From NCBI RefSeq assembly GCF_014534685.1, contig NZ_JACVVX010000001.1:310001-374000 (forward strand): a stretch of DNA of 64,000 nt. Reading direction: 5' to 3'. The stretch comes from Oryzicola mucosus (GTDB lineage: Bacteria > Pseudomonadota > Alphaproteobacteria > Rhizobiales > Rhizobiaceae). The translations under genes were made by a program, and so were the position numbers. Each line of letters opens with the position of its first letter. The stretch's first letter is position 1. Positions 2,669-5,591 of this stretch are shown here, piece after piece. Under the pieces are notes generated by a model. It was not told the DNA's origin and made no database searches. It worked only from the letters and a program-made list of their open reading frames with translations.

Positions 2669-3949
2669 TCAGCTCGCCTCATGCCGGCGGTTGACGCCGG
2701 CGGGGCGGCCGGGGATCGACAACGCGGTGTCGCGCTTTTCGCGGCGGGCAACGACCTTGCCCTTGGCGACGACGCAGAGGCGTTCGGCGCGCAGCCGCAC
2801 CGCTTCGATGGGATTGCCGGCATCGAGCACCACCAGCGACGCATCCTTGCCCACGGCAAGGCCATAGTTTTCCAGGCCCATGATCGCGGCGTTCACATTC
2901 GTCACCATGTCGAAGCAGCGCCGCATGTCGTCCGGGCTCGACATCTGCGCGACATGAAGGCCCATGAAGGCGACGTCGAGCATGTCCGCCGTGCCGAGCG
3001 AATACCATGGGTCGAGCACGCAATCCTGGCCCCATCCGACGCGGATGCCGTGCTTCAGCATTTCCGGCACGCGTGTCATGCCGCGACGCTTGGGATAGCT
3101 GTCGTGGCGGCCCTGCAGCATGATGTTTATCAGCGGGTTGGGAATGATGGACACATCGGCCTCGGCAATCAGCGGCAACAGCTTGGACACATAGTAATTG
3201 TCCATCGAGTGCATCGACGTGCAGTGCGAGCCCGCCGCCCTGCCCTGCAGGCCAAGGCGCTGCGTTTCATAGGCGAGCTGCTCGATATGGCGCGAATGCG
3301 GGTCGTCGCTCTCGTCGCAATGCAGGTCGACCATCAGCCCGCGTTCCGCGGCGATCTCGCAGAGGTCCGTGACCGAGCGGGTGCCGTCGGCCATGGTGCG
3401 CTCGAAATGCGGAATGCCGCCGACCACGTCGACGCCCATGTCGAGCGCGCGGATGGTGTTTTGGCGCGCGGTCGGATCGCGGTAAAGCCCGTCCTGCGGA
3501 AAGGCGACAAGCTGCAGGTCAATGTAAGAGGCGACCTCTTTCTTCACCTCCAGCAGGGCCTCCACTGCCAGCAGCCGGTCGTCGCAGGTGTCGACATGGG
3601 TGCGGATGGCAAGCAGCCCCATCGACACGGCCCAGTCGCAATAGTCGAGCGCGCGGCTCTTCACCGCCTCATGCGTCAGCAGCGGCTTGAGTTCGCCCCA
3701 CAGCGCGATGCCTTCCAGAAGCAGACCCGATGCGTTGATGCGCGGAATGCCGTAGCTGAGCGTGGCGTCCATATGGAAATGCGGATCGACGAAGGGTGCG
3801 GATACAAGATCGCCGGAGGCGTCTATGGTTTCGCCCGCCTCGCCCATGATCGACGGCTCGATCGCCATGATCTTGCCGCCCGCGATGCCGATATCGGCGA
3901 CGCGTCCATCGGGCAGCGTGCCGCCTTTGACCAGGATATCGAAGCTCAT
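2669..3949 (-). CDS. codA: cytosine deaminase-like amidohydrolase
   Basis: A 426-residue metal-dependent amidohydrolase very close in length and sequence to E. coli CodA. The metal and catalytic residues occur with a constant offset of four from CodA: HFH (57, 59), Gln152, His210, Glu213 (HCDE), His242 (SHCTSMHS) and Asp309, plus LQGRHDSYPKRRGMTR. CodA converts cytosine to uracil and also acts on isoguanine. The residue after the catalytic Asp, equivalent to CodA Asp314 that shapes substrate choice, is Cys310 here, and the preceding His is Gln, so the preferred base may differ. ATG at 3949 follows a strong AGGAGGT ribosome site. It is the last gene of a minus-strand series with a BMP-type base/nucleoside importer, fitting salvage of imported bases. 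Confidence 0.88.
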   Translation of the reverse strand: MSFDILVKGGTLPDGRVADIGIAGGKIMAIEPSIMGEAGETIDASGDLVSAPFVDPHFHMDATLSYGIPRINASGLLLEGIALWGELKPLLTHEAVKSRALDYCDWAVSMGLLAIRTHVDTCDDRLLAVEALLEVKKEVASYIDLQLVAFPQDGLYRDPTARQNTIRALDMGVDVVGGIPHFERTMADGTRSVTDLCEIAAERGLMVDLHCDESDDPHSRHIEQLAYETQRLGLQGRAAGSHCTSMHSMDNYYVSKLLPLIAEADVSIIPNPLINIMLQGRHDSYPKRRGMTRVPEMLKHGIRVGWGQDCVLDPWYSLGTADMLDVAFMGLHVAQMSSPDDMRRCFDMVTNVNAAIMGLENYGLAVGKDASLVVLDAGNPIEAVRLRAERLCVVAKGKVVARREKRDTALSIPGRPAGVNRRHEAS

Positions 3950-3984
3950 CGTTCACCTCCTCGGTTTGTCGCTCTACGCCGACA

Positions 3985-4016
3985 CCGTCATCCTCGGGCT
4001 TGTCCCGAGGATCTGC
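3985..4016 (+). repeat. REP-type hairpin, left copy
   Basis: A 32-nt element containing the stem TCCTCGGG-CTTGT-CCCGAGGA (8 bp, 5-nt loop). It is a perfect inverted copy of 4431-4462. Read through, this repeat gives the peptide PEDDG that is common in misannotated alphaproteobacterial ORF tails, which marks it as a widespread dispersed repeat. The two copies bracket the GIY-YIG gene. Confidence 0.9.
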
Positions 4017-4140
4017 GGCCTTGTCGGCTGGGCGCGGCCTTTCAGCCGCATTTCATGATCCCAACGCTTCAGTTGTAGTCGACCCACATTTTTGTGTTGG
4101 GGTGTGGGCGATATAGATTGTCGATCTCGTCAATGCGATC

Positions 4141-4410
4141 TTACAGATCCAGCCACGTAGGGTTCAGTCCCTTGATCAGGCTGGCTTTCCATTCGCGGCG
4201 ATATCTCTTGAGAGACTTCTCGCGCTGTATCGCCAGAACGATATTCGGATGCCTCTCAAACCAGACCAGATTTTTCACGTTGTATTTTGCAGTGAAGCCT
4301 TGGTGAACTTCGTTTCGGTGCTCCCAGACACGATTTCTCAGATCACTCGTGACACCGATGTAAATCACGCCACGCGGCCTGTCTGACATCATGTAGGCGA
4401 AGCCGGACAT
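4141..4410 (-). CDS. GIY-YIG domain endonuclease (small, COG2827-like)
   Basis: An 89-residue single-domain GIY-YIG protein. The first half carries the two motif strands (FAYMM and VIYIGVT), followed by the catalytic Arg region (RNRVWEHR), a Tyr-rich segment (HQGFTAKYNVKNLVWFE) and the Glu-bearing helix REKSLKRYRREWK; it ends NPTWLDL, typical of stand-alone GIY-YIG proteins of this group. Family members are predicted to be small nucleases and have no settled role. The gene sits between codA and an ABC permease gene, inside what otherwise reads as one operon, and is bracketed by two identical inverted REP hairpins about 125 and 20 nt away. That arrangement suggests the gene and hairpins arrived together as a unit. 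Confidence 0.88.
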   Translation of the reverse strand: MSGFAYMMSDRPRGVIYIGVTSDLRNRVWEHRNEVHQGFTAKYNVKNLVWFERHPNIVLAIQREKSLKRYRREWKASLIKGLNPTWLDL

Positions 4411-4430
4411 GGCCTTTCTTTCACATGTCG

Positions 4431-4462
4431 GCAGATCCTCGGGACAAGCCCGAGGATGACGG
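4431..4462 (-). repeat. REP-type hairpin, right copy (inverted)
   Basis: This 32-nt element is the exact reverse complement of 3985-4016, with the same internal 8-bp stem and 5-nt loop. It begins 20 nt upstream of the GIY-YIG start codon and ends 11 nt before the stop codon of the upstream permease gene, so it may also act as a transcript-stabilising hairpin at that gene's 3' end. Confidence 0.9.
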
Positions 4463-4473
4463 GCGGCACGGCT

Positions 4474-5415
4474 TCATCTCTCCCCCTTCTGGTAAGGCAC
4501 CATCAGCGCCTTGGGATAGGAGGCGCGGCGCGCCACGAGGATCAGCGCCAGGATCGACAGCGCATAGGGCATCATCAGGAACAGCTGATAGGGCACGACA
4601 CCGCCGGACAGCTGCTGCAGGCGGATCTGATAGGCGTCGAAGGCGGCGAACAGGATGGCGCCCAGGAGCGCCTTGCCGGGCCGCCAGGAGCCGAACACGA
4701 CGAGCGCGATGCAAATCCAGCCGCGCCCGTTGATCATCTCGAAAAAGAACGAGTTGAAAGCCGACATGGTGAGAAACGCGCCGCCGACGGCCATCAGCGC
4801 GCTGCCAACCATGACGGCGCCGATGCGGATGGCGTTGACGCTGATGCCCTGCGCTTCCACGGCCGAGGGGTTTTCGCCGGCGGCGCGGACGGCAAGGCCG
4901 AGCGGCGTGCGGTAGAGCACCCAGGCGACCAGCGCCACCGTCAGGAAAGCCAGGTAGGTCAGCGGCGTCTGGTTGAAAACCGCGTCGCCGAGGAAAGGAA
5001 TGCTCGACAGGCCGGGGATGGCGAAGGGCTGGAACGGCTCGATCTTGGGCGGAGACGTGACCTGCGGCAGCGCCAGCCGGTAGGTGAAATAGGTCAGGCT
5101 GGTGGCAAACAGCGTGATGCCGATGCCGACGACATGCTGCGAGAGACCGAGCGGCACCGTCAGCGTGGCGTGCAGCAGGCCGAACATCGCGCCTGCGAGG
5201 GCAGCAACCGCGACGCCGGTCCACAGATCCCCGCCGGAGTAGACGGTGAACCAGCCGGCAAAGGCACCGACGGTCATAATGCCTTCGATACCGAGATTGA
5301 GCACGCCCGCCCGCTCGCAGATCAGTTCGCCCATGGTGGCGAAGATCAACGGCGATGCGATGCGGATGGCGGCGACCCAGAAACTCGCGGTGAAGAGGAT
5401 GTCGAGCGCGTCCAC
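4474..5415 (-). CDS. BMP-type nucleobase/nucleoside ABC transporter, permease 2
   Basis: A 313-residue inner-membrane protein of the BPD_transp_2 family (YufQ/NupQ group), about 9 hydrophobic segments. Diagnostic stretches are the N-terminal PLIFATMGELICERAGVLNL with GIEGIM, and RAAGENPSAVEAQGIS, the cytoplasmic coupling loop for the ATPase. With permease 1, the double-ABC ATPase and the BMP lipoprotein-type binding protein it would import purine or pyrimidine nucleosides/bases. The start is GTG at 5415; its Shine-Dalgarno (GGGGGAGGG) lies inside the arm of the palindromic repeat at 5419-5591, so the hairpin could mask the ribosome site. Followed downstream by the GIY-YIG gene and codA. Confidence 0.9.
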   Translation of the reverse strand: MDALDILFTASFWVAAIRIASPLIFATMGELICERAGVLNLGIEGIMTVGAFAGWFTVYSGGDLWTGVAVAALAGAMFGLLHATLTVPLGLSQHVVGIGITLFATSLTYFTYRLALPQVTSPPKIEPFQPFAIPGLSSIPFLGDAVFNQTPLTYLAFLTVALVAWVLYRTPLGLAVRAAGENPSAVEAQGISVNAIRIGAVMVGSALMAVGGAFLTMSAFNSFFFEMINGRGWICIALVVFGSWRPGKALLGAILFAAFDAYQIRLQQLSGGVVPYQLFLMMPYALSILALILVARRASYPKALMVPYQKGER

Positions 5416-5418
5416 GGC

Positions 5419-5591
5419 CTACCCTCCCCCTTGAGGGGAGGGTCGCGGAACAATCGGCGTGCCCTGCGCGCGATTGAGACGCGGGGTGGGGTTGCCGATG
5501 AAGTGCTCGATCCTGACACAACCCCACCCCGTCTCACGAACTTCACTGCGTTCCGTTCTCTCGACGACCCTCCCCTCAAGGGGGAGGGTAG
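5419..5591. repeat. long palindromic intergenic element (type A)
   Basis: A 173-nt imperfect palindrome that fills nearly all the gap between the two permease genes. The outermost 27-nt arms (5419-5445 and 5565-5591) are perfect reverse complements and each holds its own small stem (CCCTCCCCTTGAGGGGAGGG type). Inner arms pair again (GAGACGCGGGGTGGGGTTG with CAACCCCACCCCGTCTC). The architecture matches the RIME-like mosaic elements of rhizobia. No coding signal. Confidence 0.9.

Follow-up and report, generated by a model that had tools for sequence, protein, structure and literature searches.

The segment at positions 3985–4462 of the window, by which we mean the whole 64-kb stretch of DNA analysed here, is probably a minimal transposon-like unit whose GIY-YIG nuclease would be the cognate enzyme of the CGTC-tagged REP superfamily. 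The nuclease is a strong candidate for the mobiliser of CGTC REPs, and the best one so far. The assignment draws on the architecture of the unit, the enrichment of REP pairs around related genes, the pairing of two nuclease subfamilies with two repeat families, an empty site in relatives, the geometry of gene-less repeat pairs (REPINs) and purifying selection on the gene.

An earlier note on this DNA had described two perfect 32-nt inverted stem-loops on either side of a stand-alone GIY-YIG gene, the whole lying inside a nucleobase-transport/codA operon, and this description holds in all parts: the two copies are exact reverse complements (extended, they match over 40 nt at 93%) and thus form terminal inverted repeats, both fold as DNA hairpins when compared with shuffles, the intervening gene matches PF01541, and permease, GIY-YIG gene and codA follow one another on the same strand (Table 1). 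The repeat reads CCGTC-ATCCTCGGG-CTTGT-CCCGAGGAT-CTGC, a palindrome with CGTC at one end as in the CGTC-tagged REP superfamily, and the tags of both window hairpins point outward. Allowing up to three mismatches, the window holds two copies, against none expected from the shuffled window. The same note called the repeat a common alphaproteobacterial one, which is not true of this genome (4.9 Mb, 28 contigs), where four close copies, two at the unit and two as an inverted pair elsewhere, and one degenerate copy were found; like other members of the superfamily it is nevertheless multicopy, with about five copies here and up to 126 in relatives. A second inverted hairpin pair of another repeat family (ACCCTCCCCCTTGAGGGGAGGGT / ACCCTCCCCTCAAGGGGGAGGGT), REPIN-like in layout, lies between two permease genes at 5422–5590.

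Table 1. Features of the unit and its neighbours in the window (z, DNA hairpin folding compared with shuffles)
Feature	Position	Strand	Remarks
REP hairpin 3' of the gene, CGTC-tagged (CCGTCATCCTCGGGCTTGTCCCGAGGATCTGC)	3985..4016	+	Tag on outer side; exact inverted copy of 4431-4462; z -5.3
REP hairpin 5' of the gene, CGTC-tagged	4431..4462	-	Tag on outer side; stem ends 24 nt from start codon; z -4.2
GIY-YIG nuclease gene, stand-alone, 89 aa	4141..4410	-	PF01541, E 8.7e-10; alignment; AlphaFold2 model
C-terminal tail remnant (DRIDEIDNLYRPHPNTKMWVDYN, then stop) after in-frame TAA	4069..4140	-	Read through in relatives
Approximate insertion, without counterpart at the orthologous site of G001	3962..4476		Window net 528 nt longer
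ABC transporter permease, nucleobase-transport operon; left neighbour in transcription order	4474..5415	-	Stop overlaps codA start in relatives
codA, cytosine deaminase; right neighbour	2669..3949	-	NF005748, above cut-off

Bracketing of genes of this type (subfamily 1) by REPs is not a matter of chance. The survey of GIY-YIG flanks that the earlier note had proposed was carried out on two sets, the first comprising 80 loci with 10-kb flanks, which came from the top of a scan's hit list and are hence non-random, the second 299 genomes drawn evenly from the phylum, the loci of which include the highest-scoring places. The best inverted match between the 400 nt upstream and the 400 nt downstream of a gene was scored, and pairs scoring at least 20 were counted. 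Such pairs flank 45 of 79 GIY-YIG loci and 8 of 1062 other ORFs in the same loci; in the phylum sample they flank 44/70 subfamily-1 genes compared with 3/172 neighbouring genes (p 2.7e-26), and none of the 26 genes for PIN toxins, another small mobile gene. When GTC-tagged hairpins were called directly, both sides were occupied in 39/74 cases (controls, 12/977), and the nearest upstream hairpin had its tag outward in 39 of 52, often 19–32 nt from the ATG. About 37% of the subfamily-1 genes in the phylum sample are without a detectable repeat pair, and where a genome has extra copies of the gene, bracketing is less frequent in these than in the best hits.

The association is specific. Hairpin sequences vary between genomes, but the left and right copies of one unit match: their stems differ at 0.88 of nine positions, a figure that rises to 3.12 on shuffling the partners, and the distance between stems correlates with that between proteins (Mantel r 0.41, p 5e-4). 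Two subfamily-1 genes in one Rhizobium bangladeshense genome (L038 and L086) have different REPs, each matching at both ends. Subfamily 2 of the GIY-YIG proteins, a separate clade (support 0.97), has bracketing inverted repeats in 14 of 26 cases versus 0 of 108 control genes, most of these repeats being of the CCTGAGCTTGTCGAAGG type, which is unrelated to the CGTC repeat, and CGTC REPs occur on both sides of 0/26 subfamily-2 genes. We refer to the CGTC-type repeat of subfamily 1 as REP1 and to the repeat of subfamily 2 as REP2; genome-wide counts come from pattern searches, each pattern seeing one REP variant. Across 61 genomes, with phylogeny ignored, at least five REP1 copies were present in 15 of the 29 genomes with subfamily 1 and in 4 of the 32 without it (p 0.002); REP1 number was unrelated to subfamily 2. 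REP2 number tracked subfamily 2 (p 0.02) but had no such relation to subfamily 1. Four genomes with at least nine REP1 copies, among them G005 with 95, lack a subfamily-1 gene. In the same 61 genomes, carriage of at least five REP1 copies was unrelated to the presence of Y1_Tnp (2/9 with, 17/52 without). RAYTs are HUH (Y1) transposases, which the earlier note mistook for tyrosine-recombinase-like enzymes.

Several loci add detail on how such genes and repeats adjoin. The subfamily-2 genes L296, L297, L309 and L310 run at their 3' ends into the neighbouring repeat, which adds tails such as RPSTSSG; extensions of this kind are the likely origin of unusual C-termini among annotated GIY-YIG proteins. 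Two GIY-YIG genes on one contig (L255 / L209) lie about 0.9 kb apart, each flanked on either side by GTCATTCCAGC-type hairpins, and in a Neisseria gonorrhoeae record (L319, 2501–2767) a relative of the gene lies within an array of GTCATTCCC...GGGAAT (dRS3-like) repeats that extends to both sides.

REPs also occur as pairs without a gene, and the ends of these REPINs are the ends of the gene unit minus the gene. The window genome contains one such inverted pair of 102 nt (C25:164255-164356). In REP-rich relatives the tags of close REP pairs point outward in 39 of 39 cases, and REPIN length is constant within a genome, at 91–92 nt in G040 and 112–114 nt in G042; in G040 the gene itself (L029) sits between two whole REPINs. 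In the flanks of the G042 REPINs (L345–L354) a weak inverted motif runs past the tag (AACCCAC..TTC / GAAGAAGGATGGGTT), and the mobile ends may therefore exceed the hairpin. The second GIY-YIG gene of the window genome (L002) was considered as a clean case and rejected, as its REP differs from that of the window unit, the gene being preceded by a longer, GTCAT-type REPIN and followed by a truncated copy. At the spot orthologous to the REPIN of G000, a similar REPIN is found in G008, and G001 and G032 have other repeats there; it is a repeat hot spot and thus offers no clean empty site. The gap between sufD and sufS (L154, 2040–2270, and its orthologues) is a hot spot, holding different repeat families in G000, G001, G008 and G032.

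The unit is a recent arrival in the window operon, since the permease–codA junction is empty in a congener and in at least eight other genera. In the congener (G001; codA 98% identical) nothing separates the two genes, the permease stop and the codA start overlapping within an ATGA, and the same overlap recurs in those genera; the 528 extra nucleotides at this junction, which contain the gene and both hairpins, are found only in the window genome. This empty-site comparison, also proposed by the earlier note, shows gene and hairpins absent or present together, and no REP is present at the G001 site. An ATGA region lies on both sides of the insert, so that neither permease nor codA is disrupted; as several bases distinguish one side from the other, the arrangement is only TSD-like. 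The low G+C content of the gene also suggests recent acquisition: it is 51%, compared with 62.6% on average in the window, and 35 of 2361 windows of 270 nt are equally low.

Elsewhere in the clade the unit has a different address. Relatives 72–82% identical to the window protein lie between sufB and sufC in G003, G025 and G029, several further relatives are syntenic with these copies, and the window genome has no unit between sufB and sufC. The suf-operon unit has thus been inherited over several genera, which implies that movement is rare in the clade of the window unit, and because the clade otherwise sits at sufB–sufC, the unit has changed place, but rarely. On Shinella plasmids gene and REPs are jointly present or jointly absent, and in the gap between fnrL and a response-regulator gene on Sphingobium plasmids the unit is present in seven strains and missing from four. 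In two of the Sphingobium plasmids that lack the unit, TomTYG64 and TomTYG74, the place it occupies in their sisters holds just one hairpin, which bears a tag on either end; lone double-tagged hairpins of this kind are found at L322 1685–1857 (CCGTCACCCCGGGTCAAGCCCGGGGTGACGG) and L320 1593–1760, with the REP–gene–REP unit on sister plasmids. Such a hairpin is possibly an excision scar or a pre-insertion target.

The protein belongs to the GIY-YIG family (PF01541) by profile match and by its catalytic-type residues Y6, Y17, R27, H31 and E64, which are invariant across the family alignment. Its AlphaFold2 model (pLDDT 92) has UPF0213 (1zg2), Slx1, UvrC and I-TevI as neighbours at Z about 5 to 6 (1zg2, Z 6.3 over 74 residues), and a sequence search of solved structures returned weak matches only; the likeness seen in the predicted structure is that of the GIY-YIG fold and nothing beyond. 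The gene is under strong purifying selection (dN/dS 0.05–0.14 within the clade). The window ORF ends in a TAA at codon 90; relatives have a sense codon in this position, usually one for Tyr, and their proteins continue for about 23 residues. The frame after this TAA is still open to the usual stop.

In the mechanism that we favour, the element would comprise one GIY-YIG gene with CGTC-tagged REP hairpins as its terminal inverted repeats, REPINs would be the non-autonomous copies of the nuclease, and the second GIY-YIG subfamily would serve the CCTGAGCTTGTCGAAGG repeats. The REPs might be extruded, either as cruciforms or, in single-stranded DNA, as hairpins; the nuclease would recognise the hairpin and its GTC tag and cut at the outer ends, much as its structural relatives Slx1 and UvrC act at junctions and lesions, and the freed or copied segment could then be joined at a new site through strand invasion or repair. 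The earlier note had linked the GIY-YIG gene with REP spread, and this reading is supported in part, each subfamily matching its own repeat family and that family's copy number; binding and cutting of the hairpins by the protein, and any part it has in movement, are what we infer. Counting against a mobiliser, we know of no joining activity in a hydrolytic nuclease.

The main rival to this mechanism, to which we assign a clearly smaller though real chance, is homing: the nuclease would invade existing REPs or REPINs and be copied in by repair with the REP arms as homology, the REPs spreading by other means. GIY-YIG is a classic homing-nuclease fold, with I-TevI among the structural neighbours, and the position of the gene between whole REPINs, in G040 and in others, fits such invasion, as does the single hairpin retained by TomTYG64 and TomTYG74, although the latter is equally well a scar of excision or deletion. 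Against homing, the empty site has no REP in G001 or in at least eight genera, so that under homing a REP had to arrive first, and homing alone leaves unexplained why REP copy number follows the gene. Relatives of the protein are absent from 50,697 phage records and occur in 33 of 72,556 plasmid records, 32 of the 33 being non-mobilizable. A phage-borne homing gene, or one carried by an intron or intein, was rejected as an identity for the unit, given a stand-alone gene and no phage match.

Less probable still is a host factor, a nuclease that would act on REPs at cruciforms or breaks without moving them and be kept near its substrate, or a gene whose transcription the REPs regulate or terminate. 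The strong purifying selection, the long-lasting synteny at the suf operon and the kinship with the repair nucleases Slx1 and UvrC are all in keeping with a host function, and the hairpin near the start codon with regulation; yet action in trans needs no pair of inverted, tag-outward substrates around the gene, the unit has changed operons, and terminators are not found 24 nt upstream of a gene's own start codon.

That a RAYT or another transposase moves REPs and unit in trans, with the nuclease as passenger, is very improbable. RAYTs are known to move GTAG REPs, but CGTC repeats were not linked to transposase genes in the survey of Di Nocera et al. (PMC3733652). A RAYT was rejected as the mover in the window genome, from which PF01797 is absent; Y1_Tnp is missing from most REP-rich relatives as well (G003, G004, G005, G008, G015, G029, G040, G048 and G051), and its presence is without correlation to REP1 number. 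Least probable of all is that no functional link exists, REPs gathering between genes and small dispensable genes landing in REP-rich gaps: intergenic REPs can attract insertions, as is known for ISs (PMC1525189), but neighbouring genes, short ORFs and PIN toxins in the same or related genomes are unbracketed, and each of the two GIY-YIG subfamilies has a repeat family of its own.

The wider proposition, that GIY-YIG proteins are the missing mobility enzymes of CGTC REPs and CCTGAGCTTGTCGAAGG repeats and that REP–gene–REP units are a new class of mobile element, driven by a nuclease alone without a recombinase or HUH transposase of its own, seems to us evenly balanced. Both repeats are abundant throughout Proteobacteria and count among the most widespread repeat superfamilies of bacteria, and the pairing of each with its own nuclease subfamily is directly testable with a protein of 89–120 aa and a 32-nt hairpin. 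If the proposition is true, REPs gained mobility at least twice, from unrelated enzymes; a nuclease of a single domain is able to drive a mobile element, which would be of a new class should the nuclease alone move it; and thousands of ‘GIY-YIG family’ genes, at present classed among repair proteins, would have their annotation corrected.

REP–gene–REP units with a transposase are already known as REPtrons, which combine a RAYT (TnpA-REP) with GTAG-tagged REPs or REPINs (PMC3733652, PMC3116915, PMC8266576); what differs here is the enzyme and the repeat class. The earlier note took a GIY-YIG/REP link to be undescribed, and our literature search, to which preprints and most subscription papers were outside scope, returned no report of one. 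Like a REPtron, the window unit is small and chromosomal, with a single gene between inverted REP hairpins bearing tetranucleotide tags and gene-less REPINs in the same genome, but its enzyme is a PF01541 GIY-YIG nuclease and not an HUH/Y1 transposase, its tag is CGTC in place of GTAG, and its genome is devoid of Y1_Tnp. With the CGTC REP superfamily the window repeats share tag and palindrome, and are members of it; whereas the 2013 survey of Di Nocera et al. left these REPs without a dedicated transposase or other enzyme (PMC3733652), the present analysis ties a nuclease gene to them. The stand-alone COG2827-type or UPF0213-like proteins (1zg2) have the same fold and one-domain size, the window-type genes differing in their linkage to REPs, which that same search, preprints lying beyond it, did not find for such proteins. 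I-TevI and Slx1/UvrC, finally, have the catalytic fold and invariant residues in common with the window protein, but the unit described here is without an intron, an additional DNA-binding domain or occurrence in phages, and carries hairpin repeats at both of its ends.
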